64,000 nucleotides of DNA from NCBI GenBank assembly GCA_947625225.1, contig CANQNQ010000002.1:1-64000 (forward strand), given 5' to 3'. Below, in pieces: positions 9,597 to 62,571 of the stretch; the stretch's first letter is position 1, and each line of letters begins with the position of its first letter. The position numbers and the translations under genes are program-made. The notes beneath the pieces were generated by a model that was not told the DNA's origin, did no database searches, and saw only the letters and a program-made list of their open reading frames with translations. The DNA comes from an uncultured Clostridia bacterium (GTDB lineage: Bacteria; Bacillota; Clostridia; Christensenellales; CAG-917).

Positions 9597-9605
9597 AATA
9601 CAGGT
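9597..9605 (+). repeat. AATACAGGT motif
   Basis: Exact core in the convergent gap between the HAD phosphatase and the SpoIIQ-like gene. The ACTC prefix is absent, and the right flank is AT-rich (TATATTTTG). Confidence 0.6.
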
Positions 9606-9627
9606 ATATATTTTGACGATATGAGGC

Positions 9628-10308
9628 TTATTTTTCGTCAAGCACCAGCACGGTGAGCGGGTCGATATATTCGCCGTCTTTCAACATCTCGAAGTGCAGA
9701 TGCGCGCCCTCAAGGGATTCGTAGCCCTGCGAGGTGGACATCTTGCCTATCTCCTGACCCTGCTTCACCTTGTCGCCCTTTTTGAGGGTGGACTCCGCCT
9801 CAAGGGACATATACTTTGTCACATAGCCGTCGTCGTGCTTGAGCACAATGTAGTAGCCGTCCAGCTTGTTGTAGCCCGTCTCCTCCACGGTGCCGTCCGC
9901 CGCGGCGGTCACATTGAGGTCGTCGGACTTGAAATCCACGCCGTTATGCGTCCTGAAGTCGCCCATAGTTTCGTTTTTGACAAGCGCGTCTATGGAGCAA
10001 TTTAAGCTGACCGTGCCGTTGCAGGGCATGTAAAAGGTCAACTTTTTGGGGACGTCGGGTTGGACGTCGGGCTTGTTGCCCTCGTTGGGATCCTGATTTT
10101 GCGAGTCGTCGGGTTTCTGCACGGATATATCGCCTCCGCCCGGCTCGATGTTGTCTACGGTCGGCGCGTCCTGCGAACCGCTGTTGTGCGTGACCGCCAG
10201 CGCGATCACCGTGGCGATGGACGCTATGCACAGTATAAGCAACAGGTAAAAAGCGTTGCGCTTCATAAAGCCTCCGACGCGCTTCATTGCAATGGAAAAT
10301 TTACTCAT
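9628..10308 (-). CDS. membrane-anchored M23 peptidase, SpoIIQ-like
   Basis: The 226-residue protein has an N-terminal transmembrane segment (FYLLLILCIASIATVIALAV, residues ~22-41), a Pro/Asp/Gln-rich linker and a LytM/M23 domain. Zinc-site residues are visible: the His and Asp in RTHNGVDF, and HLHFE near the C-terminus. This fits SpoIIQ, which in forespores bridges to the mother cell during engulfment. Clostridial SpoIIQ proteins commonly keep the metal ligands, as here. A general cell-wall hydrolase or SpoIVFA-like role is the alternative. The start at 10308 has GGAGGT 8 bases upstream. Confidence 0.75.
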   Translation of the reverse strand: MSKFSIAMKRVGGFMKRNAFYLLLILCIASIATVIALAVTHNSGSQDAPTVDNIEPGGGDISVQKPDDSQNQDPNEGNKPDVQPDVPKKLTFYMPCNGTVSLNCSIDALVKNETMGDFRTHNGVDFKSDDLNVTAAADGTVEETGYNKLDGYYIVLKHDDGYVTKYMSLEAESTLKKGDKVKQGQEIGKMSTSQGYESLEGAHLHFEMLKDGEYIDPLTVLVLDEK

Positions 10309-10382
10309 TTTTGTGTACCTCCGATTTGCAATGATTATTGACCCGCTCACGCCGCTTTATACGTCCAATGCTCAAAATTTTC

Positions 10383-10391
10383 AATACAGGT
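10383..10391 (+). repeat. AATACAGGT motif
   Basis: Exact core preceded by TC and followed by CGCTGTTTTTGCAAAA, in the divergent gap between the SpoIIQ-like gene and the acyl-CoA ligase, about 100 bases upstream of the ligase promoter. Confidence 0.65.
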
Positions 10392-10488
10392 CGCTGTTTT
10401 TGCAAAAGAATGTTGATATGTATGGGCAATCTGCGCCTCTGCGCCCGCGCGAAAAAAGACATAAATTGCGCCTTAAAGTCAAATGTGC

Positions 10489-10517
10489 TTTACATATAAA
10501 AATTGGGATAGTATAAT
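10489..10517 (+). promoter_or_regulatory. promoter of acyl-CoA ligase, leaderless
   Basis: TTTACA (10489-10494), 17 bases, then TATAAT (10512-10517). The ATG at 10524 is where transcription would be expected to begin, and no ribosome site precedes it, so the mRNA is probably leaderless. Confidence 0.75.
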
Positions 10518-10523
10518 TGACGT

Positions 10524-12047
10524 ATGACTTCGATACACCATTCGTTATATCGCTTTATGCATGATTTTCATGCCAAGCAGGACAGCGTCGCCGTGATAAG
10601 CGGCAACTCCAAGATGACCTTTCGCAAGCTGTTTGACGAGATCGACAGGGTCGCGGCGGGGCTTTACGCCATGGGAGTCAGGCGCGGCAGCGTGGTTATG
10701 CTTGCGCTGCCCAACATCCTGCAGAACGTGGTGGCGGTGTACGCGCTCTCCCGCATAGGCGCGGTGGCGGCGATGATACATCCGCTGTTTTCTGCCGACC
10801 AATTTGCGCAGGCGGTGGAAAAGCTCAAGCCGGAGGTGGTGTTCCTTTCTGACGTAAATCTCAAATCATTCTGGAGCAGGTGCGGCGGTGCAAAGCGCGT
10901 GATATGTCCCTTTTTGGCGTACGCGTACATTGGGCTCAAGCGCGGCAGGCAGTTTGAGCTGTACGAGGGCGACGGCGAGGAGGATATGTTCTATATGCAG
11001 TCGGGCGGCACTTCGGGCTCGCCAAAGACCATAGCGCTGTCCTCGCGCGCGGTCAACGCCATAGTGGCAAATCTGTGCGCGACGCTGGGCGATCGTTTTT
11101 CGGAGCACAACAGGATGCTGTGCGTCATGCCCATGTTCCACGGCTTCGGGCTGTGCGTGGGCGTGCATGCGTCGCTCAGTTTCAACATGACGGCGGTGCT
11201 TATGGCGCGCTTTGACGCGGACAAGGCAATGAAAGTAATCGCCAAGCGTCGCGTCACCAATATGATAGCGGTGCCGCGCATGGTCAGCAAGCTGCTTGCG
11301 CACAAGGATTTCAAGGGTGACAACATAAGCAGCATACAGGAGGTCTATGTCGGCGGCGACAGCATCAGCGACAGGCTGGTGAGCGACTTCGAGCAGCGCA
11401 TACGCGACGTGGGCGGCAACGCGCGCATACTTCCCGGCTACGGATTGACGGAGACGGTCACGGTCTGCGCCCTCACCCGCGGCGAGTTCAGGCAGGGCAG
11501 CGTGGGCGCCATGCTTGACGGCATGGAGGCGCGGGTCGTGGACGACGACCTCAATGTCCTGCCCGTGGGCGAAAGGGGCGAGCTGCTCATCGCGGGCGAT
11601 CAGCTTATGACGGGCTACTTCGGCGACGAGGAGGCGACAAAGGCGGCGTTTGTTGAGATAGGCGGCAAGCGCTACGTCAGGTCGGGAGACCTCGTCAGCA
11701 TGGACGAGGAGGGCAGGATATACTTCCTCGGCAGAAAGAAGAGGCTGATAAAGATATCGGGCATGAACGTGTTCCCATCCGACATCGAGAGCGTCGCGCA
11801 ACAGCTGGACTACGTCAAGGAGTGCGTTGCGCTGGAGTACAAGGTGGGCGACAAGTCCTTCATAAGATTGCTTGTAGAGGGCGAGCTGACCGACGCGCAA
11901 AAGAAGGGGATAATTTCGCACATCGCAAAACATCTGTCCCACTGGAACATCCCAAGCGACATCGTGTGCGTAGAGAGGTTCCCGCGCACGCAGATCGGCA
12001 AGGTGGACGCAAAGGCGCTTATGGCGCAGTATGGCACAAACGAGTAG
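10524..12047 (+). CDS. AMP-binding acyl-CoA synthetase/ligase
   Basis: This 507-residue member of the ANL adenylate-forming family activates a carboxylic acid with ATP and transfers it to CoA. Motifs in order are the P-loop-like MQSGGTSGSPKTIALSS, YGLTETV near residue 310, SGDLVSMDEEGRIYFLGRKKRLIKISG (hinge), and a C-terminal lysine in QIGKVDAK. N-terminal and C-terminal domains are complete. The chain length of its substrate is not predictable. It is transcribed alone, with a strong promoter and its own terminator. Confidence 0.88.
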   Translation: MTSIHHSLYRFMHDFHAKQDSVAVISGNSKMTFRKLFDEIDRVAAGLYAMGVRRGSVVMLALPNILQNVVAVYALSRIGAVAAMIHPLFSADQFAQAVEKLKPEVVFLSDVNLKSFWSRCGGAKRVICPFLAYAYIGLKRGRQFELYEGDGEEDMFYMQSGGTSGSPKTIALSSRAVNAIVANLCATLGDRFSEHNRMLCVMPMFHGFGLCVGVHASLSFNMTAVLMARFDADKAMKVIAKRRVTNMIAVPRMVSKLLAHKDFKGDNISSIQEVYVGGDSISDRLVSDFEQRIRDVGGNARILPGYGLTETVTVCALTRGEFRQGSVGAMLDGMEARVVDDDLNVLPVGERGELLIAGDQLMTGYFGDEEATKAAFVEIGGKRYVRSGDLVSMDEEGRIYFLGRKKRLIKISGMNVFPSDIESVAQQLDYVKECVALEYKVGDKSFIRLLVEGELTDAQKKGIISHIAKHLSHWNIPSDIVCVERFPRTQIGKVDAKALMAQYGTNE

Positions 12048-12080
12048 TTTCATATAGAGTGACATACATATATTATAGTG

Positions 12081-12121
12081 GCGCTCCCGTATGCAGCAGT
12101 GTGCAAATGGGAGCGCTTTTT
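12081..12121 (+). terminator. terminator of acyl-CoA ligase
   Basis: GCGCTCCC (12081-12088) pairs with GGGAGCGC (12109-12116), followed by TTTTT. An AATACAGGT copy on the other strand begins four bases later. Confidence 0.8.
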
Positions 12122-12124
12122 GAT

Positions 12125-12133
12125 ACCTGTATT
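12125..12133 (-). repeat. AATACAGGT motif
   Basis: Full version on the reverse strand with AAAAACTC before the core, placed directly after the T-run of the acyl-CoA ligase terminator. Confidence 0.75.
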
Positions 12134-12179
12134 GAGTTTTTCTAAGATTTGTTGAGATGTAAATATGTCAAAACGATGA

Positions 12180-12350
12180 TATGTATGAGCTTTGATATGC
12201 GCATATGTTATCTTGCATATTGTGACATATGCGCAATCAATATTTGACGTGATTGTGCGGGCGCATATGCGCATATTTTGCTGTGCCTGCGCGGACATAT
12301 GCTCATCTGTCGCCATATAAAAAAACCGACGAGGCGCCATATGTGCAGGC
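12180..12350. repeat. CATATG / GCGCATAT-rich intergenic stretch
   Basis: The gap between the ligase and spoVG holds no gene. It contains repeated palindromic words built from GCGCATATGC: near 12195, 12228, 12260 and 12292, with a further CATATG at about 12337. Similar words recur at 14300-14410 on the other side of murC. No protein-like frame or promoter is evident. Confidence 0.45.
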
Positions 12351-12381
12351 GTTCACATCGGGTGCCTTTAATAAATCGTGC

Positions 12382-12423
12382 AAAAAAAACACCGCCTGTC
12401 TCAATTGAGACAAGTCGCTCGGT
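12382..12423 (-). terminator. terminator of spoVG
   Basis: On the reverse strand TTGTCTC and GAGACAG pair around an AATT loop, with an outer ACCG/CGGT clamp, followed by a run of eight T. Confidence 0.8.
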
Positions 12424-12451
12424 TTATATTGCAGTGGTCTTTGAGGGGAAA

Positions 12452-12727
12452 TCAGCCCTCATCGGAGCCCGCGCTCTCTTTGTAGGCGGTAAGGATAAGG
12501 TTTCTTAAGGCTTCGCGCGTCTCGGTATTTATGGGATGAACAATATCTTTGAACTCGCCGCCGGGCGTCTTTCTGGACGGCATGGCGATAAACTCGCCGT
12601 CAGTGCCGTCTATGATCTTGATGTCGTGGATTGCAAAGCAATCGTCAATGATGACGGAGGCAACCGCTTTGAGCTTGCTGCCGTCAGCAGTCACTTTGCG
12701 AATCCGTATGTCCGTGATGTTAAGCAT
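12452..12727 (-). CDS. spoVG: septation/sporulation regulator SpoVG
   Basis: This 91-residue protein matches SpoVG over its length: MLNITDIRIRKV, then VASVIIDDCFAIHDIKII and FIAMPSRKTPGGEFKDIVHP. SpoVG is a small RNA/DNA-binding regulator that affects septation and sporulation in Firmicutes. GGAGG precedes the ATG. It is transcribed alone, divergently from murC, and ends in a strong intrinsic terminator. Confidence 0.96.
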   Translation of the reverse strand: MLNITDIRIRKVTADGSKLKAVASVIIDDCFAIHDIKIIDGTDGEFIAMPSRKTPGGEFKDIVHPINTETREALRNLILTAYKESAGSDEG

Positions 12728-12852
12728 GTGGTATACCTCCTGAGTATTCCTATATAAATCTTAACATAGAACTTCTCGATTTTCAATAATTATTTTTAAT
12801 TTTACCCAATTTATTATTAAAAAACCGCCTTTGGTTGACATGTTAATTTTAT

Positions 12853-12861
12853 ACCTGTATT
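12853..12861 (-). repeat. AATACAGGT motif
   Basis: Exact core on the reverse strand in the divergent gap between spoVG and murC, 45 bases before the murC start. The prefix is ATTC instead of ACTC. Confidence 0.65.
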
Positions 12862-12905
12862 GAATATTGTCAAAAATTTCAAATTTTTCATATAGTGAGC
12901 GCGAT

Positions 12906-14264
12906 ATGTGCAGGCAAATTCATTTTATAGGCGGAAGCGGCGTGGGCATAGGCGCGCTGGCAAAGTTCGCGCTGGGGACGGGAGCAAGGGTAAGCGCAAG
13001 CGACAGGACGGATAGCGATCTGCTTCGAGCGCTTGAAGCGGCGGGCGCGCGCGTATGGGTGGGCGAAAAACCGCGCGAGATGGGCGACGTAGACCTCGTG
13101 GTATACTCCTCTGCGGTCAAAGCGGACAATGCTGAGCTTGCCGCGGCGTGCGAAAGAGGCATCCCCACGCTTGAAAGGCACAAGTTTTTGGGCGAGGTCT
13201 CCCGCAGATTTGCATATTGCGCGGCGATCGCGGGGACGCACGGCAAGACAACCACCACGGCTATGCTGACGCACATCCTTTCAAGCGAAGGCGTAAAGCT
13301 GGCGGCGATGATAGGCGGCATGTCGCGCGACTTTGGCAACTATTTTTGCAACTTTGACTTGAGAGATGGCGACGGCATATTCGTAACGGAGGCGTGCGAG
13401 TACAGGCGCAGCTTTTTGAGCCTTGCGCCCACGGTTGGCGTCGTGACAAATATGGAATGCGACCATCCCGATTGCTACGCGAGTCTGGACGATGTGAAGG
13501 ACGCGTTTGCACGGTTTTTGGCGGGGGCAAAAAAAAAGATAATCCCGTCGGGGCTTGGTCGCCTGCTTGGGATAGACGCTCCCGCGCGGGAAAATTGCAT
13601 ATTGCGCGTGGACGGCGGACGCGTGGAGAGCATGGACGTGGAGATTGTTGGCGAAAACAGGTGCCGACTTGAGCAGGACGGAAGAGCGCTGTGCGATATA
13701 GAACTTAAAGAGGACGGAGACTACAACCTGTTCAACGCGGCGTTTGCGGTGGCGGCGGCGATGGAGCTGGGCGCAGATCCCGTGCGCGCGGCGCGTAGCC
13801 TGTCCACCTTTGGCGGCGTGGACAGACGATACGAATATGCCGGCGAGATGGGCGGCGTGCCGGTTTATTTCGACTTTGCGCACCACCCGACGGAGTTGAC
13901 CTGCGTGCTGAGGCGCGCCGCGAAGCGCGGAAAAGTGTTGACCGTGTTTCAGCCGCACACCTACAGCCGCACCAAGGCGTACCTCGACGACTTTGTCAAG
14001 GCGCTGACGGAAAAAGAGGTCGGGACGCTTATACTCATGCCCGCGTACAGCGCGCGGGAGGACGCGTCGGAGGGCGTGGACAGCAACGCTCTGGCGGAGG
14101 CAATACGGCGCGCGGGCAAAGAGGACGTGCTGTGCCTCGGCGCGGATGAGGTATTGCCCGCCGTAAGAAAGCGCACTGTGTCACACGGCGTGATTTTGTT
14201 TGTGGGCGCGGGCGATATATACAAACTGAAACGCGAAATTCCGCATACAGGTGTGCATTTTTGA
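12906..14264 (+). CDS. murC: UDP-N-acetylmuramate--L-alanine ligase
   Basis: MurC adds L-alanine to UDP-MurNAc in cytoplasmic peptidoglycan precursor synthesis. The 452-residue protein has the N-terminal HFIGGSGVGIGALAK nucleotide-sugar motif, the ATP loop AGTHGKTTTTAML (residues ~105-117), VTEACEYRRSFL, DFAHHPTEL and QPHTYSRT, all typical of MurC. The ATG at 12906 is chosen because it gives the canonical N-terminus. A TTG at 12867 is open but lacks support. A TATAGT box at 12891 would give a very short or absent leader. The variant word CATACAGGT lies in its last codons (14244). Confidence 0.95.
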   Translation: MCRQIHFIGGSGVGIGALAKFALGTGARVSASDRTDSDLLRALEAAGARVWVGEKPREMGDVDLVVYSSAVKADNAELAAACERGIPTLERHKFLGEVSRRFAYCAAIAGTHGKTTTTAMLTHILSSEGVKLAAMIGGMSRDFGNYFCNFDLRDGDGIFVTEACEYRRSFLSLAPTVGVVTNMECDHPDCYASLDDVKDAFARFLAGAKKKIIPSGLGRLLGIDAPARENCILRVDGGRVESMDVEIVGENRCRLEQDGRALCDIELKEDGDYNLFNAAFAVAAAMELGADPVRAARSLSTFGGVDRRYEYAGEMGGVPVYFDFAHHPTELTCVLRRAAKRGKVLTVFQPHTYSRTKAYLDDFVKALTEKEVGTLILMPAYSAREDASEGVDSNALAEAIRRAGKEDVLCLGADEVLPAVRKRTVSHGVILFVGAGDIYKLKREIPHTGVHF

Positions 14265-14413
14265 CTAAAAAAGCGTACAGTATTGGATTTAGAAAAGCGC
14301 AAAATATATGCGCATATGCGAATATGGCTAAATGATAACATTGTATATGTGCGCATATGAATATGCCGCCAAATGAGGATACCTCAAATGGCGGGGCGCG
14401 CATATGGGAAGGG
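14265..14413. other. intergenic, CATATG-rich with imperfect hairpin
   Basis: No gene is seen. The gap between convergent murC and the DUF4363 gene repeats GCGCATATG-like words. It also has a hairpin (CCGCCA and GAGG with their complements around ATA, about 14368-14396) without a T-run on either strand. Confidence 0.4.
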
Positions 14414-14791
14414 TCAGATGATGTCCGCCGGATTGAAGTCCACAATGTTGTGGATGTTGGACGACATCACCAGCAGTGACTGTATCTTGGACAGCGCGTT
14501 CTGATAGTCCGCGCACTCCAGCGAGCCCTGCGTTTCGCCCAGCGCGACAGAGAAGTTGCGCACGTCCGGGGAGTATATAAACAGCTCCATATAGCTGCGC
14601 CTCTTTTCCCACCAGGCTGACAGCCGCGCGCACTGCTCGGCGCAATCGTTCGACTGCGACTTCACGGCGCCTTCAAGCTCCAGCAGTCTTTTGTCCAGTG
14701 CGTCGAACACTTTGTCCACGTAAAAGTTTTCAAGTATGCCCGCCGTGATGATGACAAGCAAAATTACTATGGCGACCACGACCTTTTTCAT
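14414..14791 (-). CDS. DUF4363 family membrane-anchored protein
   Basis: The 125-residue protein starts with one transmembrane helix (VVVAIVILLVIITAGILENF) followed by an extracytoplasmic helical region containing SAWWEKRRSYMELFIYSPD and ending in NIHNIVDFNPADII, which fits DUF4363. It overlaps the DUF421 gene upstream by 4 bases. DUF421/DUF4363 pairs recur in spore-forming Firmicutes, and a partnership at the membrane is inferred from that. No enzymatic motif is visible. Confidence 0.8.
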   Translation of the reverse strand: MKKVVVAIVILLVIITAGILENFYVDKVFDALDKRLLELEGAVKSQSNDCAEQCARLSAWWEKRRSYMELFIYSPDVRNFSVALGETQGSLECADYQNALSKIQSLLVMSSNIHNIVDFNPADII

Positions 14792-15600
14792 TGGTGCCTC
14801 CCATCCTCGCCAAAAGCGGCGTTTTTGGCACCTGTATCGCGTTTTTCGTCGCCCATGGCGGCGTCAGTGACGCTTACGGATGTCTCCGCGTCGTCGTCCG
14901 TGGTCAACGTTGCGGTGATGTAGTCACCCTTGTAGGGCTGTATAAACAGCTGTTCGCCGGCGACAAGCAGCACCAGCACATCGCTTTGGCATATATGCAG
15001 CCTGTCAAGCAGCACCAGCATCCTTTCCTTGGTGACGCCGTTGAGCTTGGCGAGATTTTCGCCTAGAAATTCGCCCTCCATTATGACGGTGACGGGCAGT
15101 CCCGCCTGCTGTACATCAAGCCCCAGATCGGAGGGGGACACGGGGCGACTTTGGCTTTTGGGCAGCACGGTGAGGCTGCCGTTGGTCTCGAGTATGGCGT
15201 ATTCCACCTCGCTTGGATTGAAGTAACCGTCCCCTCGCAGCGCCTCCATGATGTCGTCTATGTTCATATTCAGCTCCTTCATCACCTCGGGAAGGATGTT
15301 GCCGCGCTCGATGAGGATGACGGGCTTGCCGTTGAGGAATTTGCGGAAGCGCACGCTCTTTGTTGCCAGCTTTGTGATGATGATGTGCACCAAAAACAGC
15401 GAGAATACGGGGATTATGCCGTAGATTATGGGGATGGTGGCGTCCGCCATGGGGATGCACACCAGCTCGCTTGCGACAAGCGTGATCGCCAGCTCGAAGG
15501 GCTGCAATTCGCCCAATTGCCGCTTGCCCATAAGGCGCATTGCCAACAGCAAAAAGAAATATAGTATTATACAGCGTAAAAACAAATTCAGCATAAGCAT
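14788..15600 (-). CDS. DUF421 (YetF-like) membrane protein
   Basis: This 270-residue protein has three N-terminal transmembrane segments (from FLRCIILYFFLLLAMRLMGK), then the cytoplasmic DUF421 core with GKPVILIERGNIL and EYAILETNGSLTVLPKSQSRPV. A variable acidic tail follows. The RLMGKRQLGELQPFELAITL loop is typical of the family. YetF/YrbG-type proteins are linked to spores, but their function is unknown. No clear ribosome site precedes the ATG. It forms a coupled pair with the DUF4363 gene. A GATACAGGT variant lies within its last codons (14830). Confidence 0.85.
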   Translation of the reverse strand: MLMLNLFLRCIILYFFLLLAMRLMGKRQLGELQPFELAITLVASELVCIPMADATIPIIYGIIPVFSLFLVHIIITKLATKSVRFRKFLNGKPVILIERGNILPEVMKELNMNIDDIMEALRGDGYFNPSEVEYAILETNGSLTVLPKSQSRPVSPSDLGLDVQQAGLPVTVIMEGEFLGENLAKLNGVTKERMLVLLDRLHICQSDVLVLLVAGEQLFIQPYKGDYITATLTTDDDAETSVSVTDAAMGDEKRDTGAKNAAFGEDGRHQ

Positions 15601-15649
15601 ATTGTGCTTTTACGCGGCGGTTTTATTCAAAAAAACGCAATACATGTGG

Positions 15650-17194
15650 CTATTTTGCCATTTGTTTATACGCTTTGCGCGCATGCCTTTTTTTGCGGGA
15701 AGTCACGCCCACGGGACGTATCAGCTTCATCAGCCCCACCACGTCCACGATCTTGAACGCGTTTACAAATACCGTCATCAACAGCAACGCTGCTACGCCC
15801 ACCACGAGCACGGATACCCACTTGCCCGCCGCGGAGGTCAGCAGTCGCTCGCAGAACATGCCAAGCACAGCCAACGGAATGGAAAATCCAATCAGCAGCG
15901 CCGCCTTGCGCGCGTTGACAAAGGCGCCCACCTCCTTTTTGAGCCGGATACAGTTGAGAAGCGCCGTCACGCCGAAACACAGCCCGCTGCCCACCGCCAT
16001 CGCGTACACGCCTATGTATTTTGGCAGCAGCAGTATGCAGGGTATGACGGGCAGGGTGCCTATGACGGTGTTCAAAAAGGTGTTTTTCTCCCTGCCCAGC
16101 GAGTTGAGCATGGGCGTTGTCACTTGCGCTATGGATATTGGAAACAGCAACAGAGAGCAGTATGACACCAACTCTCCCGCCTCGCTGTCGCCGAAAATAA
16201 GGGTGCCCAAATGCCTGCCAAGCGGCAGATACAGCACAAAGAAGCACGCGGCTATCAGCATCGCAAACAGCATGGCGGCGCTCAGCTTGCCGCGCACTCC
16301 GTCCATGTCCCCCTTGCTTTTCAGCTCCGCGACGTCGGGGATGAGCACCACCGACAGCGAGCTTACCAGCATGACTGGCGCCATGATGAGGGGCAGCGCC
16401 ATGCCCGCCACTCTGCCGTACTCCGCGGTGGCGTCGGCGGGGGACATTCCCGCGCGGATGAGCAGGCGGGGCAGCACTATCGCCGTAAGAGAGGCGGTGA
16501 GAGCGGTGAGTATGCGCGTTGCGGACAGCGGCAGGGTGCGCAGGGTAAGCTCCTTGAAGCCGCGAGGCTTTGTCAGCCTTCCGCCCGAGGCGAAGTACAG
16601 CACGCCAAGCGTCGCCACGCATACCGCGTCGGACAGCGTCATCGCCAGCGCAATGCCCGTCGCGCCGCTAAGAGATGACACCAGCCCTCCCGCAAGCACG
16701 GCGGCAAGGATTATGCGCACCACCTCGTCAAGCAGCTCCGTGGATGAAAACGCGAGGAAGTTTTTTCTGCCCCAGAACCAGCTGCGCAGCGAGGCGTACA
16801 GCGTGGACGTGACAAGCGTGGGCAGCATGATGAGGAATATGGGCAGGCATCTCTCGTCCGAAAACAGCACGCCAAGGCGAGCGTTTAGCCCGTACAGCAG
16901 CGCGCACAGCCCGCCGGATATGGAAAGTCCCAGTATGATGGACGCGGTGGTGAGCGAGTTTTGCCGCTTTGTATCGCTCGTCGCCTGCGCCTCCGCCACC
17001 TTGCGGGACAGCACCGTGGGCGCGCCTGAAGTGAGCGTAAACAGCATGGACAGCACGCTCATCGAGATTTGATATATGCCCACCGTCTGCGCTCCCAGCG
17101 CGCGCGACATCCAGATCTTGAAAACAAAGGATATAAGCCTTGTCACGATGGCGAACCCCGTGACTATGGTGAAGGACTTTGCCGTTTTGTTCAT
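15650..17194 (-). CDS. spoVB: MOP-superfamily flippase, stage V sporulation protein B-like
   Basis: The 514-residue protein is all transmembrane helices, with the SpoVB-type start TAKSFTIVTGFAIVTRLISF and FKIWMSRALGAQTVGIYQ. It belongs to the polysaccharide/lipid II flippase group (SpoVB, YtgP/MurJ-like). SpoVB itself is needed for spore cortex synthesis. The ATG at 17194 fits the family N-terminus, though no strong ribosome site is seen. An open frame continues further up but is not protein-like. It stands alone, between the DUF421 gene and the giant lipoprotein gene. Distinguishing SpoVB from a vegetative YtgP paralogue would need a tree. Confidence 0.82.
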   Translation of the reverse strand: MNKTAKSFTIVTGFAIVTRLISFVFKIWMSRALGAQTVGIYQISMSVLSMLFTLTSGAPTVLSRKVAEAQATSDTKRQNSLTTASIILGLSISGGLCALLYGLNARLGVLFSDERCLPIFLIMLPTLVTSTLYASLRSWFWGRKNFLAFSSTELLDEVVRIILAAVLAGGLVSSLSGATGIALAMTLSDAVCVATLGVLYFASGGRLTKPRGFKELTLRTLPLSATRILTALTASLTAIVLPRLLIRAGMSPADATAEYGRVAGMALPLIMAPVMLVSSLSVVLIPDVAELKSKGDMDGVRGKLSAAMLFAMLIAACFFVLYLPLGRHLGTLIFGDSEAGELVSYCSLLLFPISIAQVTTPMLNSLGREKNTFLNTVIGTLPVIPCILLLPKYIGVYAMAVGSGLCFGVTALLNCIRLKKEVGAFVNARKAALLIGFSIPLAVLGMFCERLLTSAAGKWVSVLVVGVAALLLMTVFVNAFKIVDVVGLMKLIRPVGVTSRKKRHARKAYKQMAK

Positions 17195-17292
17195 AAAAAA
17201 GTTTATGCGCCCAAAAGCGGCGGATATGCAACGGGCGCAAAGCACAGCTTGATTTATACTATAGTTTTTATAAGGTTGGGCGCGAAAAACGC

Positions 17293-17301
17293 AATACAGG
17301 T
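17293..17301 (+). repeat. AATACAGGT motif
   Basis: Exact core between spoVB and the giant lipoprotein gene, followed by AACAAAAAC, 44 bases from the terminator at 17336. Confidence 0.6.
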
Positions 17302-17335
17302 AACAAAAACGGGGGAGTGGGGGCGAAAAAGGCAT

Positions 17336-17367
17336 AAAAAAAAGCCCTGCGAGTTTTCGCAGGGCTT
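17336..17367 (-). terminator. terminator of the 1,558-residue lipoprotein gene
   Basis: Perfect 11-bp stem (AAGCCCTGCGA with its complement), 4-base loop, then a T-run on the reverse strand. Confidence 0.9.
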
Positions 17368-17381
17368 GAGCGGTGAAGTTA

Positions 17382-54052: not shown

Positions 54053-54065
54053 CCGCGAATTTTGC

Positions 54066-54074
54066 AATACAGGT
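54066..54074 (+). repeat. AATACAGGT motif
   Basis: Core with TTTGC before it, between the rex stop and the bidirectional terminator 10 bases further. Confidence 0.65.
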
Positions 54075-54083
54075 ATGTATTTT

Positions 54084-54118
54084 ATAAAAAAAAAGCGACG
54101 CCATGCGTCGCTTTTTTT
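54084..54118. terminator. bidirectional terminator between rex and glyS
   Basis: AAGCGACGC pairs with GCGTCGCTT around CAT, with long A-run and T-run on either side. Confidence 0.92.
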
Positions 54119-54136
54119 GTGCATTTACAGTTTATA

Positions 54137-55522: not shown

Positions 55523-55577
55523 AATTTTTGCTCCTTTCCCTATATGGATAATAGGGGGATAAATTTTGTTAATAGAA

Positions 55578-55606
55578 TGATAAAATAACCGCGCGCAAAA
55601 GTCAAA
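55578..55606 (-). promoter_or_regulatory. promoter of glyS
   Basis: On the reverse strand TTGACT (55601-55606), 17 bases, TATCAT (55578-55583). The leader is about 45-50 bases and contains a short CCCTAT/ATAGGG hairpin. Confidence 0.7.
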
Positions 55607-55768
55607 CGATTGGCGACAAGTGATAAATTGTTGTATTTTGAGCGATGTAAAAAGAAGTGTAAACAAAAAAGTTGCTATTTTGTAAAAATGATTTATAATG
55701 ATTATGACAAACCTTTTAAGGACGCCCGCATGGGCGTGCCGATGGCAGGCACACAAGCGGAAAAACTC

Positions 55769-55777
55769 AATACAGGT
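55769..55777 (+). repeat. AATACAGGT motif
   Basis: Full version (AAAAACTC before, TGCAATTTTGTCATA after) in the divergent gap between glyS and the DUF3737 gene. Confidence 0.75.
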
Positions 55778-55860
55778 TGCAATTTTGTCATATGTATCGC
55801 AAAAATTGCGGTATAGGCATAAATTTTAAGACGGGCAATGCCCGCGCAGTGAGGAAAAGC

Positions 55861-56700
55861 ATGAAAGAGATCTTGGGGAAAACATTTGGGGAGGAGCGCG
55901 CGCTCTACGCCATAAAGGACGCGCGCGTAAAGGATTGCCGCTTCGAAGGCGTAGAGGACGGCGAATCTTTTTTGAAGGAATGCGAAAACGTCTCCGTTGA
56001 GGATTGCTATATGGACTTGCGCTATCCCATGTGGCACGCGCGCTCGCTGTCCATAAAGGGTGGCGAGATGACCTTGCGTTGCCGCGCGGCGCTGTGGTAC
56101 GACAGCGCGGTCTCAATAGAGAGCTGCAAAATAGACGGCGTGAAGGCGCTGAGGGAGAGCAGGGATATTTCCATTGTAGCCTGCGACATCAACTCGCCGG
56201 AATTTTGCTGGCGCTGCAAAAACGTGAGCGTGCGCGGGGGCAGCGTTGAGGGCGAATACGCCTTTTTCGAGAGCGAAAACGTCAGCGTGGACGGTATAAA
56301 GTTCAACGGCAAATACTCCTTCCAATATATCAAGGGGCTCAGCGTGACCAACAGCGTGCTAAAGACCAAGGACGCCTTTTGGCACACGCAGGGCGCGGTC
56401 ATAAAGGATTGCGTGATAGACGGCGAGTATCTCGGCTGGTATTCGGACGGGCTGACGCTTATAAGGTGCCGTATAAAGGGGACTCAGCCGCTGTGCTACT
56501 GCACAAATCTTAAACTTATAGATTGTACCATGGAGGACTGTGACCTCTCCTTTGAGTACAGCGAAGTGGACGCGGATATAAAGGGCGCGGTGACGTCCGT
56601 CAAGAATCCGCTGAAGGGCAGGATAGTTGCGGACGGCTACGGCGAGATAATACTTAAAGACAGCAAGTATCCCTGCGAGGCGGAGATAGTCGTGAGATGA
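55861..56700 (+). CDS. DUF3737 right-handed beta-helix-like protein
   Basis: This 279-residue protein of the DUF3737 family starts MKEILGKTFGEERALYAIKD. It consists of short repeated strands (VSVEDCYMDLRYPMWHA, VSIESCKIDG, VSVRGGSVEGEYAFFES) typical of a parallel beta-helix. There is no signal peptide. The ATG at 55861 follows GAGG. These proteins are common in gut Firmicutes; no activity is known. Trp/Tyr-rich turns could bind carbohydrate, but this is a guess. Confidence 0.88.
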   Translation: MKEILGKTFGEERALYAIKDARVKDCRFEGVEDGESFLKECENVSVEDCYMDLRYPMWHARSLSIKGGEMTLRCRAALWYDSAVSIESCKIDGVKALRESRDISIVACDINSPEFCWRCKNVSVRGGSVEGEYAFFESENVSVDGIKFNGKYSFQYIKGLSVTNSVLKTKDAFWHTQGAVIKDCVIDGEYLGWYSDGLTLIRCRIKGTQPLCYCTNLKLIDCTMEDCDLSFEYSEVDADIKGAVTSVKNPLKGRIVADGYGEIILKDSKYPCEAEIVVR

Positions 56701-56751
56701 AATATATGCGAAATATCGCATACAGGTGCCACTTTTGATACGCATATAAGA

Positions 56752-56780
56752 AAAAAGCCGCGGTTGACCCGCGGCTTTTT
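56752..56780. terminator. bidirectional terminator
   Basis: AAGCCGCGG pairs with CCGCGGCTT around a 5-base loop, with A-run and T-run. It serves the DUF3737 gene and the convergent Cys-rich mini-gene. The variant word CATACAGGT lies at 56720. Confidence 0.9.
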
Positions 56781-56790
56781 CCATGCGCGC

Positions 56791-56970
56791 TTACTTGCAA
56801 CCGCCGCCGCACATACAGGAGAGCAGCAATATAAGCCACACAATGTCGCAGCTGTTGACGTTCATGCCGCATCCGCAACCGCCGCCGCAGTTGTTGAGCA
56901 GAAGCATCAGGAGAATGAGGTCACAGCAGTTTGCGCCGCATCCGTTTGCGCCGTTAGAGAAAAAGTTCAT
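56791..56970 (-). CDS. 59-residue Gly/Cys-rich hydrophobic mini-protein
   Basis: The reverse-strand frame begins MNFFSNGANGCGANCCDLIL. It has a hydrophobic leucine-rich stretch, CGGGCGCG, then a second hydrophobic stretch (IVWLILLLSC) and ends in MCGGGCK. Two similar halves each combine a hydrophobic segment with a Cys/Gly cluster. GGAGG lies 8 bases before the ATG, and a strong terminator follows the stop, so the gene looks real. It resembles small sporulation or coat-associated Cys-rich proteins in character but matches no family I can name. Confidence 0.75.
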   Translation of the reverse strand: MNFFSNGANGCGANCCDLILLMLLLNNCGGGCGCGMNVNSCDIVWLILLLSCMCGGGCK

Positions 56971-57076
56971 GGTATGTACCTCCGGATATATTAGGATCGC
57001 TCCTACATTACCTTACGCGTTTTGAAAAAAATGTGTTACGGCGCATTGAAAACGGCGCAAGAAAATATATTTTGAT

Positions 57077-57541
57077 GTGGAGCAACTCAAGCGCATGATC
57101 GGCATAGTCGCTGCGCTGTTCTGTACGCTTGTCGTGGCAGGGCTGTGCTCATATTGCTTCAAAATGGACCATGCGTGGTACAACGCGCTTTCAAAGCCGC
57201 AATTTTTGCTGTCCGGCGGGTGGTTTTCGCTGTTTGTGGGCGCAAGCTACCTGTCCTGCATACTGTCCGTAAGCCGCCTTGTGGAGTACAAACATCTGTT
57301 TCCGAGCATGCTGTTTTTCGTGCTGCTGGGAACGGGCTGCGTGCTGTTTGTGTGGAGTTTTTTCACATTGAAAAACATGCTTGCGGCATTGATATTTATG
57401 ACGTTGGTGCTGGCGATGGCGTACACGCTGTTTTTGAGGTTTTTGACCAAGGAAGTGCGCCTCGCGCTTGAATTTTTGCCCACCTTGCTGTTTGACATCT
57501 ACGCGTTTATAGTGGTGCTGTGCATCGTCATGGCAAACTGA
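57077..57541 (+). CDS. TspO/MBR-family membrane protein, divergent
   Basis: This 154-residue protein has five transmembrane helices in the TspO pattern: GLCSYCFKMDHAWYNALSKP near the start, a WSFF at the start of helix 3, and an LPTLLFDIYAFIVVLCIVMAN end where the family has PY-x-WV-x-FA-x-x-LN. Several conserved Trp residues are missing, so ligand binding may differ. The GTG at 57077 has no clear ribosome site. An ATG at 57095 is an alternative. TspO proteins bind porphyrins and other hydrophobic ligands. Confidence 0.65.
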   Translation: MEQLKRMIGIVAALFCTLVVAGLCSYCFKMDHAWYNALSKPQFLLSGGWFSLFVGASYLSCILSVSRLVEYKHLFPSMLFFVLLGTGCVLFVWSFFTLKNMLAALIFMTLVLAMAYTLFLRFLTKEVRLALEFLPTLLFDIYAFIVVLCIVMAN

Positions 57542-57574
57542 AAATTTTGTACGCGCACACAATCAACTTTGTAC

Positions 57575-57603
57575 TTGATAATACATTATAACTTTGGTAT
57601 ACT
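57575..57603 (+). promoter_or_regulatory. promoter of coaX-malQ unit
   Basis: TTGATA (57575-57580), 17 bases, TATACT (57598-57603), 60 bases before coaX. Confidence 0.75.
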
Positions 57604-57663
57604 AAGTATAACGGTTGGAGGACGGCGGAACGCCGTCCGGCAAATGGATATTTTGGGTGTGAT

Positions 57664-58431
57664 ATGATAGTTACAATGGACATAGGCAACACAAACGTCA
57701 AGTTCGGCGTGTTCGACGGGGACGCGCCCGTTGTCACGTGGCGTTTTTCCACAAAGGCGTCCCGTACGTCGGACGAGTACGGCTCGATATTGTCCGACCT
57801 GCTTGCGCGCTCCGGCATCAAGGCGAGCGAAGTCGAGGCGGCGGTGCTGTCGTCGGTGGCGCCCGCGCTGAACTACACGCTGGAGCACACCTGCAAGGAC
57901 TATCTTGGCGTGACGCCCGTGTGGGTGACTCCGTCTACGGACGTGGGGATAAAGGTGCGCTACGACAATCCGCGGGAGCTTGGTTCGGACAGGCTGGTCG
58001 CTGCTGCGGCGGCGTACATGTTGTACGGCGGGCCGGTCATAGTGGTGGACTTCGGCTCGGCGACGACGTTCAATCTGGTCAACAAAAAGGGCGAGTTCAT
58101 CGGCGGCGCAATCGCTCCCGGCATAAAGACTGCGGCGGAATCGCTGGTGAATACCGCCGCTAAGCTGCCGCGCGTGGAGCTTGCCATGCCCGAAAGTATA
58201 GTCGGCAGAAGCACCACAGAGTGCATGCAGAGCGGCATAGTGTACGGCTATACGGGATTGGTGAAGTATATGCTGGAAAGCTACAGGGCGCTGGACGAGA
58301 TGGCGGGCGCAAAAGTCGTCGCCACGGGTGGTCTGTGCGAGCTGGTGGCGGATCAGTCGCTGTTTGACGTGATGGACAGGGCGCTGGCGCTCAAGGGGCT
58401 GAAGATGGCCTACGAGCGCAACAAAAAGTGA
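57664..58431 (+). CDS. coaX: type III pantothenate kinase
   Basis: CoaX phosphorylates pantothenate, the first step of CoA synthesis. The 255-residue protein has the phosphate motif MDIGNTNVKFGVFDGD, then GSDRLVAAAAAYMLYG, VVDFGSATTFNLV and GGAIAPGIKTAAESL. The 4'-phosphopantetheinyl transferase and acyl carrier protein genes downstream make this a small CoA/phosphopantetheine neighbourhood. malQ begins at its stop. Confidence 0.95.
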   Translation: MIVTMDIGNTNVKFGVFDGDAPVVTWRFSTKASRTSDEYGSILSDLLARSGIKASEVEAAVLSSVAPALNYTLEHTCKDYLGVTPVWVTPSTDVGIKVRYDNPRELGSDRLVAAAAAYMLYGGPVIVVDFGSATTFNLVNKKGEFIGGAIAPGIKTAAESLVNTAAKLPRVELAMPESIVGRSTTECMQSGIVYGYTGLVKYMLESYRALDEMAGAKVVATGGLCELVADQSLFDVMDRALALKGLKMAYERNKK

Positions 58432-58436
58432 GAATT

Positions 58437-59969
58437 ATGCAAAGGAAATTCAACCAATTTGATAGGGCGGCGGGGGTGTTGCTCAACATCTCGTCGTTGC
58501 CGAGCGAGTATGGCATAGGGTGCTTTTCGCGCGACGTAAACGCGTTTGCGGACCTGATCGCGGACATGGGCTTCCGCTATTGGCAGATACTGCCCATCAC
58601 CACGATAGGCATGGGCAATTCGCCATATTCGGGCATATCGTCCTTCGCGGGCAACAGGCTGTACATCTGCCCCAACGACCTCGAGGGGCTGCTCAGCGAC
58701 GAGGAAGTCGCCGCGTGCAAGTACCACGGCGAGCCTTACAGGACGGACTACGAGTTTGCAAAACTCAATACAGGTCGCTATTTGAGGCTTGCTTTTTCGC
58801 GTATAACGCCTGAGGTGAGGGCGCGTATGGACGCTTTCCGCAGGGAGAACGCGGATTGGGTTGAGGATTACGCGCTGTTTATGGCGCTGGCGGCGGACTA
58901 CTCCACGGCGTGGTGGAAGTGGGAGGACGGACTAAAGTTCAGGCGCCCCGACGCGCTTGAAAAGGCGCGCGCGCAATACGCCGAGGATATAGACTTCTAC
59001 GTGTTTGAACAATATCAGTTTTTCCGCCAATGGACGAGGCTCAAGTCGGAGGTAAACCGCAGGGGTGTGTCCGTCATAGGTGACTTGCCGTTTTATGTGG
59101 CGACGGATAGCGTGGACGTGTGGGCAAACGCGGACAAATTTCAGCTTGACGAGAAGCTGCTGCCCAAGGCGATCGCGGGCGTGCCGCCGGATCTGTTTGC
59201 GGCAAACGGACAGGTGTGGGGCAATTGCCTCTACGACTTCGAGGCGATGAAGGCGGATGATTATAGTTGGTGGCGGCGTCGCATCTCGCATTGCCTGAAG
59301 ATGTATGACGCGTTGAGGCTGGATCATTTCAGGGCATTTTACAACTATTTTTCCATCCCCGCGTGCGATTACAACACCGCCAAAAACGGGCATTGGGAGC
59401 CGGGACCTGCGGACAGCTTGCTCGACCTCGTGCGGCATGACAACCCCGACGCGCTGTTCATTGCGGAGGACCTGGGGCTTATAGACGAGGATTGCCGCCG
59501 CTATATCGATTCGACGGGCTTGCCTACAATGCGCGTGTTCCAATTCGGTTTTGACGGCACGCCAAGCGGCCACATTCCCTTCAGATACGAGGTGAACACG
59601 GTGGCGTACTCCGGCACGCACGACAACAACACCACGCTGGGCTGGCTGTACGAGCTTAACGAAGGCGCGCGCGACTACGTGCTGAAATATTGCGGCTTCA
59701 CGGGCGCGGGCTGGGGCGCGGGCGGACCGGACTCCAAATCCATGCATGCGATAATCAAGGTGCTGATGATGTCGTCGTCCTCGCTGGTGGTGTTGCCTTT
59801 TCAGGATATGCTGGGCTACGGCGGCGATACACGCATGAACATTCCCGGGGTGCCCGAAGGCAATTGGGAGTACCGCTTGCCTTACCACCTGATGGCGACC
59901 GTGGACAGGGACTTTTTCCTCGACCTCAACAAGACCTACGGCAGAATTGGCGGGGGAGTGAGAAGATGA
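58437..59969 (+). CDS. malQ: 4-alpha-glucanotransferase
   Basis: This 510-residue GH77 enzyme transfers alpha-1,4-glucan chains in starch/glycogen metabolism. It has RAAGVLLNISSLPSEYGIGC, GDLPFYVATDSVDVWAN, DHFRAFYNYFSIP (nucleophile region), LFIAEDLGLI (acid/base) and YSGTHDNNTTLGW. The ATG at 58437 is chosen, with an alternative GTG at 58428 overlapping coaX. An in-frame AATACAGGT word (58767) encodes KLNTGRYLR in an otherwise normal-length protein. Its stop overlaps the next start by 4 bases. Confidence 0.94.
   Translation: MQRKFNQFDRAAGVLLNISSLPSEYGIGCFSRDVNAFADLIADMGFRYWQILPITTIGMGNSPYSGISSFAGNRLYICPNDLEGLLSDEEVAACKYHGEPYRTDYEFAKLNTGRYLRLAFSRITPEVRARMDAFRRENADWVEDYALFMALAADYSTAWWKWEDGLKFRRPDALEKARAQYAEDIDFYVFEQYQFFRQWTRLKSEVNRRGVSVIGDLPFYVATDSVDVWANADKFQLDEKLLPKAIAGVPPDLFAANGQVWGNCLYDFEAMKADDYSWWRRRISHCLKMYDALRLDHFRAFYNYFSIPACDYNTAKNGHWEPGPADSLLDLVRHDNPDALFIAEDLGLIDEDCRRYIDSTGLPTMRVFQFGFDGTPSGHIPFRYEVNTVAYSGTHDNNTTLGWLYELNEGARDYVLKYCGFTGAGWGAGGPDSKSMHAIIKVLMMSSSSLVVLPFQDMLGYGGDTRMNIPGVPEGNWEYRLPYHLMATVDRDFFLDLNKTYGRIGGGVRR
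58767..58775 (+). repeat. AATACAGGT motif inside malQ
   Basis: AAAACTCAATACAGGT followed by CGCTATTTG, in frame with malQ; no frame disruption. Confidence 0.7.
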
Positions 59970-60457
59970 TATTGTTTTTTGTGCGTGCGGATGTGGACAG
60001 CGACAGATTTGTCAAACATTGCTACGCCCATTACCGCGACATAATGCGCCAATACAACCCTAATTTGCCACCTCAGGTGCGCATTTTGCGTGAGGAAGGC
60101 AAAAAACCGAGGCTGGATACGGACGAGGCGTACTTCAATTTGTCCCACTCCCACGGGCTGAGCGTGTTGGCTATATCCCACGCGCCTATAGGCGTTGACG
60201 TGGAGATGGTGCGCCCCATAGACTTTGCCAAGTTCGACTTCATCTCGGCAGAGAACGAGCAGGATTTCTTTGAACAATGGACGCAGCGCGAAAGCTACGT
60301 CAAGTTTACGGGCGAGGGGCTTGGCGCCATGCGCAAACAGCCGCCCGCCGACGCGCACTTCGAGCATTTTGATGTGTTTGACGGCTATCACGTGTGCGTG
60401 TGCGCAGAGGAGCAGAACGTAACCGCGTACGAGATGAACGCGGAGGATATAGATTGA
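59966..60457 (+). CDS. 4'-phosphopantetheinyl transferase superfamily protein
   Basis: This 163-residue short Sfp/AcpS-type protein attaches phosphopantetheine from CoA to carrier proteins. It has FNLSHSHGLSVLAISHAPIG, GVDVEMVRPIDF (magnesium-binding Asp-x-Glu) and WTQRESYVKFTGEGL (the WxxKE-like helix with Arg in place of Lys). It lacks the first third of full Sfp. The acyl carrier protein 33 bases downstream is an obvious partner. Translation is coupled to malQ. Confidence 0.85.
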   Translation: MILFFVRADVDSDRFVKHCYAHYRDIMRQYNPNLPPQVRILREEGKKPRLDTDEAYFNLSHSHGLSVLAISHAPIGVDVEMVRPIDFAKFDFISAENEQDFFEQWTQRESYVKFTGEGLGAMRKQPPADAHFEHFDVFDGYHVCVCAEEQNVTAYEMNAEDID

Positions 60458-60490
60458 TATTGCGCCGCAAATGCGGCAAAGGAGTATATT

Positions 60491-60724
60491 ATGGTTTTTG
60501 AAAAATTGAAGGACTTGATTGTCAAACAAATGGGCGTCGATCGCGACAGCATAACGCTTGACAGCGACATCTTTGACGACATTGGCGCGGACAGCCTGGA
60601 CATCGTGGAGATGCTGATGGACGTGGAAAGCCAGTGGAACATAGTCGTCGACGACAGCGAGATCTTGGGCTTCCGCACAGTGGGCGACGTGGTGAAGTTG
60701 GTGGAACAAAAAATTGCCAAGTGA
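60491..60724 (+). CDS. acpP: acyl carrier protein
   Basis: This 77-residue ACP has the phosphopantetheine serine in GADSLD (Ser35), flanked by DDIGADSLDIVEMLMDVE, and VGDVVKLVEQKI at the end. Most residues fit fatty-acid ACP. No fatty-acid genes are adjacent, so it could serve another pathway with the PPTase. AAAGGAG precedes the ATG. Confidence 0.94.
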   Translation: MVFEKLKDLIVKQMGVDRDSITLDSDIFDDIGADSLDIVEMLMDVESQWNIVVDDSEILGFRTVGDVVKLVEQKIAK

Positions 60725-60787
60725 GCGCAATTCTATATCAAAGGAACAAGGATAGGTAAAATCTTGCCTATTCGAAATTTTGTAGTT

Positions 60788-60815
60788 AAAAACCTGCTTT
60801 TTCAAGCAGGTTTTT
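60788..60815. terminator. bidirectional terminator
   Basis: AAAACCTGCTT pairs with AAGCAGGTTTT around a short TTTC loop, between acpP and convergent clcA. Confidence 0.9.
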
Positions 60816-60829
60816 ATGTTGTTTTAAGT

Positions 60830-62494
60830 TTAGTCGGTTGAATTGGCGCTCTCGTCTTTTTGGGAAGCGTCATATTTGTATTCGGGCGCGGAAATGTCCT
60901 TGCGCGGGCGGTCGCCGACTATTTGAGCTATGTCGTCTTCCACGACGCGCTTGTCGGAGGTCTGCGCCTTTATGTGCAATATGTCGCCGCTTTCCAGTTC
61001 GGTCTCGGAGGATGGGACTACGGCCTTGCCATCGCGCTCAAGCAGCACCACCGTCATGTCGCTCGGCCAGATTATGTCGCGTATCTCGCGTCCGTCCGCA
61101 TGCGAGCCGCGGCGAACTTTGGCGGTGAATTGGTGGATTGAGGGTTCGTTCTCGTCAAGCATCCACTCAAGGATGAGGTCGTAAAGCGGCTTGTGACGGA
61201 ACAGCTCGCTGACAAAGTAGCCTATCAGCACGCCTATTATCACGGGTATAAGCAGGGTGAATTGCCACGTGAACTCGATCACCATCACTATCGCTGTCAG
61301 CGGCGCCTTGACGGTGGAGGCGAATATGGTCGCCATGCATATAAGCACGATGGCGTCCGCGTATGCTTTGTCCATGCCCATCATTATGCACAGTTGCGCC
61401 ATAAACGCGCCTACGCACGCGCCCAGCGCGATTATTGGGACAAAGATGCCTGCGGGGAGCTGCGCGCCAATGTTTAGGCACAGCGAAATGACGCGCAAAA
61501 CTATCAATATCGCCAACGTCGCAAGCAGTGGAGCGCCGAATATGCCGCCGAGGGTCATCTCCTCCGCGCCGCCGTCCGTGCCCAGAGCCTCGATGAGGGA
61601 GTGACCACCGCCCGTGGCAAATACGCTTATAAGCCCCACCGCGCCCGCAAACAGCAGCGGAATGAGGACTTTTACAAAGCCGCGCAGGGCGGTCATTTTG
61701 GAGAACATCCGTCCGCTCAAAGAGGACAATTTGTATATCGCAATGCCCAAAAACGCGCATACTATGGCCGCCAAAACAACATACAGGTATGCATTTATGG
61801 GCAGATCCACCACTTTGAAGTCGTGGAACGCCGCGCCCGTGCTCAGCTTCAGCGCGCCGCGGAGCAGGTTGCGGGTGACCACCGCGCCTATGACGGAAGC
61901 AAAGGTGGTGATCACAAGCGGCGGAGTGAAGCGCCTGTGCGCCTCTTCAAGCGCGAACAGTACGCCGGTTATGGGAGCGTTGGACGCCACCGCCACGCCA
62001 GCGCTTGCGCCCGCCGATATATAAAGGCGCCTCTCCATGTCGGGACGGCGAAGCAATGTGCCCGCTCCGTCCGAAGTCATCGCGCCGATAAGCATGGATG
62101 GGCCCTCCGCGCCCGCCGTAACGCCCATAAACATGACAAACAGCGAGGAAGCCGCCATCGCGGGCAGCACCTTGTACCACTTCATGCGCAGCATACCCCT
62201 GGATGCGCCCTCGGCTTGCGGCACGCCGTTGCCCCTTATCATCGGCACGAAGTACATCGCGACGCTCAGCAAAAACGCGCCCGCCGCCAGCACGACGAAC
62301 AGCAGGGGGATGAACGCGGGATTTTCGCGGATGTAGATATACAGTTCGCCGGAATATTCGCTTATTATGTCCGCAGCTATGTTAAAAAATGTTACCACCA
62401 CGCCCGTCAGCACGCCCGTCAGCAATCCCATTGCCAACAGTTGCGCGGCGCTTTTGAGCGCGTTGAGTTTGCTTTTGTCCGCTTTGATTTCCAT
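60830..62494 (-). CDS. ClC-family chloride channel/antiporter with TrkA-C domain
   Basis: This 554-residue protein has the ClC core with GAEGPSMLIGAM (the G-x-E-x-P selectivity and gating Glu), ITGVLFALEEAHRRF and GIFVPIIALGACVGAF. A C-terminal RCK_C/TrkA-C-like domain (residues ~460-535, with REIRDIIWPSDMTVVLLERD) follows. The gating Glu suggests H+/Cl- exchange rather than a passive channel. The C-terminal domain may bind a nucleotide such as c-di-AMP, made by CdaA in this window; that is a hypothesis. No ribosome site is obvious. Confidence 0.9.
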   Translation of the reverse strand: MEIKADKSKLNALKSAAQLLAMGLLTGVLTGVVVTFFNIAADIISEYSGELYIYIRENPAFIPLLFVVLAAGAFLLSVAMYFVPMIRGNGVPQAEGASRGMLRMKWYKVLPAMAASSLFVMFMGVTAGAEGPSMLIGAMTSDGAGTLLRRPDMERRLYISAGASAGVAVASNAPITGVLFALEEAHRRFTPPLVITTFASVIGAVVTRNLLRGALKLSTGAAFHDFKVVDLPINAYLYVVLAAIVCAFLGIAIYKLSSLSGRMFSKMTALRGFVKVLIPLLFAGAVGLISVFATGGGHSLIEALGTDGGAEEMTLGGIFGAPLLATLAILIVLRVISLCLNIGAQLPAGIFVPIIALGACVGAFMAQLCIMMGMDKAYADAIVLICMATIFASTVKAPLTAIVMVIEFTWQFTLLIPVIIGVLIGYFVSELFRHKPLYDLILEWMLDENEPSIHQFTAKVRRGSHADGREIRDIIWPSDMTVVLLERDGKAVVPSSETELESGDILHIKAQTSDKRVVEDDIAQIVGDRPRKDISAPEYKYDASQKDESANSTD

Positions 62495-62562
62495 ATATAC
62501 CTCGAAGTGTCAGCGCCGCGGAAAAGCGGCTTTGCGGGTTGTGAATTTATGACAAAATTGCC

Positions 62563-62571
62563 ACCTGTATT
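62563..62571 (-). repeat. AATACAGGT motif
   Basis: Full version on the reverse strand (GAAAACTC before, GGCAATTTTGTCATAAA after) between the clcA start and the WYL gene. Confidence 0.75.

Follow-up and report, generated by a model that had tools for sequence, protein, structure and literature searches.

Dispersed words centred in phased AT fields in the genomes of uncultured Clostridia

The word and its sites

We analysed a stretch of 64,000 nucleotides (positions 1 to 64,000 of contig CANQNQ010000002.1; hereafter the window) from the genome of an uncultured Clostridia bacterium, and the dispersed 9-bp word AATACAGGT found in it. This is the most frequent 9-mer of the window, with 17 copies where dinucleotide shuffles average 0.26 and never exceed 2; ten copies have the longer form ACTCAATACAGG. 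An earlier note, made from the sequence alone, had listed 17 coordinates with strands, all of which are exact, and had placed 15 copies between genes, as does our own simple gene caller, the copies at 49589 and 58767 lying within genes. The inverted pair that it mentioned was found at 51570/51592. Its five one-base variants are real and have the same flanks as the exact copies: those at 14244, 14830, 15639 and 61780 stand as given, while the one reported at 56720 starts at 56719. The sites are as follows.

7597..19293, no strand: dense block, 8 sites
9597..9605, plus: AATACAGGT site, exact copy
10383..10391, plus: AATACAGGT site, exact copy
12125..12133, minus: AATACAGGT site (ACTCAATACAGGT), exact copy
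12853..12861, minus: AATACAGGT site, exact copy
14244..14252, plus: variant CATACAGGT, AT flanks
14830..14838, minus: variant GATACAGGT, AT flanks
15639..15647, plus: variant AATACATGT, AT flanks
17293..17301, plus: AATACAGGT site, exact copy
30401..64000, no strand: dense block, 15 sites; computed boundary 64563, just beyond the window
32401..32409, plus: AATACAGGT site; the equivalent gene end in species G017 also has a site
33909..33917, plus: AATACAGGT site, exact copy
44088..44096, minus: AATACAGGT site, exact copy
46306..46314, minus: AATACAGGT site, exact copy
47488..47496, plus: AATACAGGT site, exact copy
49589..49597, plus: in-gene AATACAGGT site (gene 48463-49899)
51570..51578, plus: AATACAGGT site following the SCIFF maturase gene; inverted pair, left arm
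51592..51600, minus: variant AATACAGAT; inverted pair, right arm
52751..52759, plus: AATACAGGT site, exact copy
54066..54074, plus: AATACAGGT site, exact copy
55769..55777, plus: AATACAGGT site, exact copy
56719..56727, plus: variant CATACAGGT, AT flanks
58767..58775, plus: in-gene AATACAGGT site (gene 58437-59969)
60071..60078, plus: CCTCAGGT, tentative further core in the same phased scaffold
61780..61788, plus: variant CATACAGGT in a ClC-type transporter gene; no gap in the G017 and G004 orthologues
62563..62571, minus: AATACAGGT site, exact copy

The source genome (G000, 1.52 Mb) contains 85 copies of AATACAGGT, against 14 of the reversed word, and in its intergenic DNA AATACAGGT is the top over-represented 9-mer by score, occurring in 63 gaps where 2.2 are expected. 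Single-base neighbours drop steeply, mostly to near background, except at position 1 (C 39, G 23). Counts near chance across the genome, which the earlier note would have taken as a refutation, are not seen. Including tolerated variants, and requiring AT flanks, G000 holds 131 sites, one per 12 kb. A check for strand skew, also suggested earlier, gave 45 and 40 copies on the two strands overall, and 20 and 14 within genes; the word shows no strand preference, and no bias of the Chi or KOPS type as far as strands go, replication direction itself being unmapped. A position weight matrix scan without a fixed core drifted into AT-rich sequence and was useless.

Site anatomy and alternative cores

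When copies are aligned on the word, the 8-bp core, ATAC followed by AGGT, is centred on the dyad of an AT-tract field of about 100 bp with a period of 10.5 bp. AT content peaks near -49, -38, -27, -16, -6, +15, +25, +36 and +46, symmetrically about the junction of the two half-cores; tracts 10.5 and 21 bp away from the dyad are the strongest. With the core and the flanks used for selection left out of the measurement, the signal is about five times as strong as in matched control words: AT power at 10.5 bp is 0.068 for intergenic copies (controls 0.013 +/- 0.005) and 0.073 for coding copies (controls 0.015 +/- 0.007), and none of 2000 resamples reached the observed value in either case. Beyond the core no fixed sequence is shared, only weak preferences (C at -1; A or T at -8 to -4 and at +13 to +17). 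The real unit is larger than the 9-mer, and consists of the core together with a phased AT field of about 100 bp. The fixed core, the AT-tract flanks and the intergenic preference with occasional in-gene copies, all described in the earlier note, are supported by these data; the phasing of the field, the strong clustering of sites and the alternative cores described below had been overlooked.

The same phased field is seen in G017, a second species of the same genus (median amino-acid identity to G000 about 61% over matched genes). The G017 stretches were picked for carrying the word; a strict pattern, which overlooks sites having shifted tracts, gives 23 matches in the whole G017 genome and none when reversed.

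A de novo scan, in which every position was scored for symmetric 10.5-bp AT phase and the 8-mers at such centres were ranked, detects such words without prior knowledge of them. ATACAGGT ranked first both in G000 (z 19.7 among 29,362 words) and in G017 (z 8.5 among 19,505 words). G002, which belongs to the genus but has no ATACAGGT sites, gave a different top word, GTTAGAAT (z 6.7; 4.5 and 4.9 in split halves), of which 9 of 13 copies are strongly phased, while all its single-base neighbours are near background. The strict GTTAGAAT pattern has 16 matches in the whole of G002, 7 of them outside the discovery stretches, against one reversed; forward and reversed counts are 6/0 in G010, 5/0 in G006, and 4/0 in both G011 and G031, with a single match in G000 and none in G017. 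Related species thus have different words in the same setting, GTTAGAAT being that of G002, G006, G010 and G011.

A second core, GTTWAAC, occupies the same scaffold within G000, with about 28 distinct strong copies (32 are listed, some of which are one site read on both strands). None of these strong copies lies in the ATACAGGT-dense blocks, where five would be expected (p about 0.003 by our own calculation). GTTWAAC is nearly a palindrome and could simply be an operator. In predicted genes at contig C5 43637/43658 and 57504/57524 it forms inverted pairs with a spacing of about 20 bp. CCTCAGGT is a weaker candidate for a further core. Two words from G004, CGAGCTAGG and TTTTAGCT, turned out to be ordinary extended repeats and do not belong to the core-in-scaffold class; stretches of G004 (e.g. 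L113 2283 and L128 12480) also contain a dispersed extended repeat, CCCCTGCACCCCAAGCTAAAAACGCGAGCTAGGCAAATTCTTGCCGTCGCTCGCGTTTTT, with at least 10 copies in 368 kb.

Distribution and origin of the copies

Ten blocks, totalling 283 kb (19% of the genome), contain 105 of the 131 sites (80%). Within them, a site is present in 67 of the 164 gaps that measure 40 bp or more (41%), against 18 of 584 outside. G000 is a metagenome-assembled genome of 31 unordered contigs. Blocks are interrupted within contigs (at 19-30 kb of the window and at 64-133 kb of contig C2), and likewise in the gene order of G002, which is available in part; one G002 contig has several of the block genes next to each other. 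Core genes are found both in blocks (murC, aspartate kinase, glyS) and in bare parts (mreB, minD, RNase G), and there is therefore no core/accessory split. Blocks of foreign origin, or a chimeric bin, were considered and rejected: the blocks hardly differ from the remaining genome in GC content, in codon usage or in their identity to relatives, and paired identity tests, which were small, gave no significant difference. Divergent gaps, where promoters are expected, make up only 7 of the 85 site-bearing gaps, where about 18 would be expected by length, and 34 sites lie in genes, on either strand.

Across 396 genomes of the order, with relatives read in part, enrichment of the word is limited to a few lineages, chiefly family f5, and counts are near zero in most. 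Counts of the word and its reverse within this family are 20/0 in G247, 11/1 in G092, 9/1 in G114 and 6/0 in G216; two named rabbit-gut Clostridia genomes also look enriched (G075, 15/0; G067, 10/1). Matches in G070, G072 and G074 were set aside, their counts including one conserved coding segment (KLNTGIKKAL). Viral contigs gave a single match and no enrichment. Five of about 22 G017 sites that can be mapped to G000 fall within 60 bp of an equivalent G000 site, against 1.8% of random positions; the shared descent of sites is only suggested by this figure, because both species favour gene ends.

In-gene sites were compared with their orthologues in three relatives. A gap lies within 10 residues of the site in 4 of 22 alignments (18%), against a background of 19%, and local identity is somewhat lower; in-gene copies therefore arose by substitution, at tolerant places. 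The alignments exclude an inserted element for these copies, and a substitution origin fits either selection or molecular drive. G000 contains one RAYT-type Y1 transposase gene (contig C4 1-1260, locus L022, 160-921, minus strand). A hairpin repeat of its own, GGGGACGGAGCAAAAATGTTA, flanks the gene, and further copies of this repeat occur in other parts of the genome.

Four small Xre-like helix-turn-helix genes form a family (window 52507-52716, C9:39660, C5:66797 and C15:12810), and three of them have a motif site no more than about 170 bp away, possibly by chance. The palindrome ATATGCGCATAT is over-represented at several places in the window (6 exact counts as a 12-mer, 7 as an 11-mer). Outside the dense blocks, G000 has a family of CRISPR-like arrays with GTCACGCCTCGCAAGAGGCGTGTGAGTTGAAAT words (about 55 copies). 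At C1 259484-274657 of G000, one uninterrupted reading frame of about 5,000 residues probably encodes a giant surface protein; contig C31, 2,818 bases, reads only as N, masked or withheld.

Possible roles of the sites

These words form a real, previously undescribed family of dialect-forming genome words. We know dispersed self-recognition words only from Pasteurellaceae and Neisseriaceae. The uptake signal sequences (USS) of the former are biased towards intergenic DNA with copies in genes, occur in inverted pairs and vary in core type between clades, and AATACAGGT resembles them in each of these respects, as it does in having a 9-bp core (AAGTGCGGT in Haemophilus), in strong over-representation with neighbours near background, and in AT tracts at helical spacing beside the core. 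In H. influenzae, USS amount to 1,465 exact or 2,206 motif copies, and work with a type IV pilus (PMC7811141). The AATACAGGT family differs in numbering about 130 copies, gathered in blocks, and in lacking association with a pilus. The DNA uptake sequences (DUS) of Neisseriaceae come in dialects: related species have different words, and a genome can hold territories of other dialects (PMC3630211, PMC7371117), such territories being known to result from exchange between dialect groups (PMC7371117). The Clostridia words likewise differ between related species. DUS dialects, however, share a CTG core, number 2000-6000 per genome and are bound by the pilin receptor ComP, whereas the Clostridia cores are unrelated and few, and their receptor is only postulated.

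Our leading reading, held tentatively and at less than even odds from the analysis of genomes, is a lineage-specific mark for the recognition or uptake of self DNA. The sites look like uptake sequences because of their invariant core, helically phased AT tracts, origin by point change (seen for in-gene copies, and expected of USS and DUS), lack of strand preference, avoidance of promoter gaps and dialects. The recognition site would be the asymmetric core ATACAGGT, with A, C or G in front of it, in the middle of its stretch of about 100 bp, where AT tracts on both sides should let the DNA bend or wrap easily around the core's reader. Lineages of the order share this scaffold but differ in the core (ATACAGGT, GTTAGAAT and probably GTTWAAC). 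Sites would arise by base substitution in free sequence, chiefly at the ends of genes and in codons under weak constraint, and then be retained. We infer a reader protein, wrapping, a role in DNA exchange and drive: a DNA-binding receptor would prefer fragments with its own lineage's core, and incoming DNA bearing that core would be recombined more often, so that the word would accumulate, as for USS and DUS.

Several observations weigh against a self-DNA mark. Copy number is about tenfold below that of USS and DUS, which reach about a thousand copies or more across the whole core genome; DUS occur once every 0.4-1.1 kb (PMC7371117), our sites once in 12 kb. They keep to blocks whose genes bear no sign of different ancestry, and the tracts of USS form no symmetric 100-bp field. 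The machinery does not follow the motif either. The earlier note would have seen support for uptake in the word's presence in a competence-proficient lineage. A complete type IV pilus operon does exist in G000 (C10 20271-27951, locus L069; pilB, pilT, pilC, pilin, pilD and pilM/N/O-like genes), and comEC, which G000 also has, was found in 18 of 20 genus members; both speak for uptake. PilB-type ATPases, however, occur in 8 of 25 motif carriers and in 9 of 34 non-carriers; in the genus, only G000 and G004 yielded PilB/PilT-type ATPases, and PilB/PilT/ComGA-type ATPases are absent from the motif-rich G017, G247, G092, G114 and G075, as well as from the GTTAGAAT genome G002. Were the sites to serve uptake, the majority of carriers would need a different route or would have lost the process. 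No ComEA-like gene stood out, by eye, beside comEC in G000. The proposed likeness to an uptake sequence thus stands for the core, flanks, inverted pair, absence of strand bias, substitution origin and dialects, and falls short in co-occurrence with machinery, copy number, evenness and the USS layout.

The main rival is the site of a chromosome-organising protein, comparable to matS or Noc, a dimer or multimer of which would wrap about 100 bp around the core and define a nucleoid domain; we regard it as rather unlikely, while a serious contender. Wrapping would explain the symmetric field, with its dyad and a 10.5-bp phase that reaches about 50 bp to either side, and independence from pilus genes, promoter avoidance and indifference to strand are all as expected. 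Like matS and Noc sites, ours are restricted to domains and occur on both strands, in and between genes; their confinement to 19% of the genome, the exclusion of GTTWAAC and the adjacency of several block genes on one G002 contig would suit dense blocks being the protein's domain, and other cores would belong to proteins of changed specificity. Yet matS and Noc sites are palindromes of far lower density than a site in 41% of block gaps, lack phased AT fields and are conserved between species; a change of core between sister species is unusual for such proteins, and dialects are not easily explained. The sites are clustered, but their blocks, on unordered contigs, are interrupted, and no paralogous DNA-binding family stood out in G000 as a candidate reader.

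Strong DNA-gyrase sites at gene ends are improbable. Gyrase wraps 120-140 bp, prefers a GC/AT periodicity of 10-11 bp, seen as periodic GC preference within about 120 bp of the cut for gyrases of three species (PMC12324340), and the periodic composition over about 100-130 bp and the gene-end location of our sites agree with this. In the E. coli motif, however, periodicity lies outside a distinct central region of 36 bp, and there is no invariant core word (PMC12393610); our tracts are strongest at distances of 10.5 and 21 bp from the dyad, and an invariant 8-bp core that changes between sister species and is restricted to blocks hardly suits a universal enzyme. That the word is the operator of a global transcription factor, as its mostly intergenic location, tolerated variants and the operator-like GTTWAAC might suggest, is very improbable given the under-use of divergent gaps, the sites within genes on either strand and the share of block gaps occupied. 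Least probable of all is a relic of a mobile repeat, of the repetitive extragenic palindrome (REP) or miniature inverted-repeat type. Species-specific abundance, gene-end location, the inverted pair and a RAYT gene in the genome would fit; but the repeat flanking that gene is a different one, no palindromic unit with shared sequence beyond the core was found, copies having only AT phase in common there, in-gene copies are not insertions, and one scaffold is common to different cores.

Taken in full, a self-DNA mark would amount to a Clostridia dialect system, in which each lineage's own 8-bp core is set in a common DNA-wrapping scaffold, genomes are mosaics of dialect territories and the reader is unrelated to type IV pilus machinery; in this extended form we consider it unlikely. 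A family of dialect words in Bacillota would either carry self-recognition biology into a further phylum, where another reader is at work, or point to a chromosome-wrapping protein that differs in specificity from one sister species to the next. In both cases it would offer a testable handle on what limits gene exchange among uncultured gut Clostridia.

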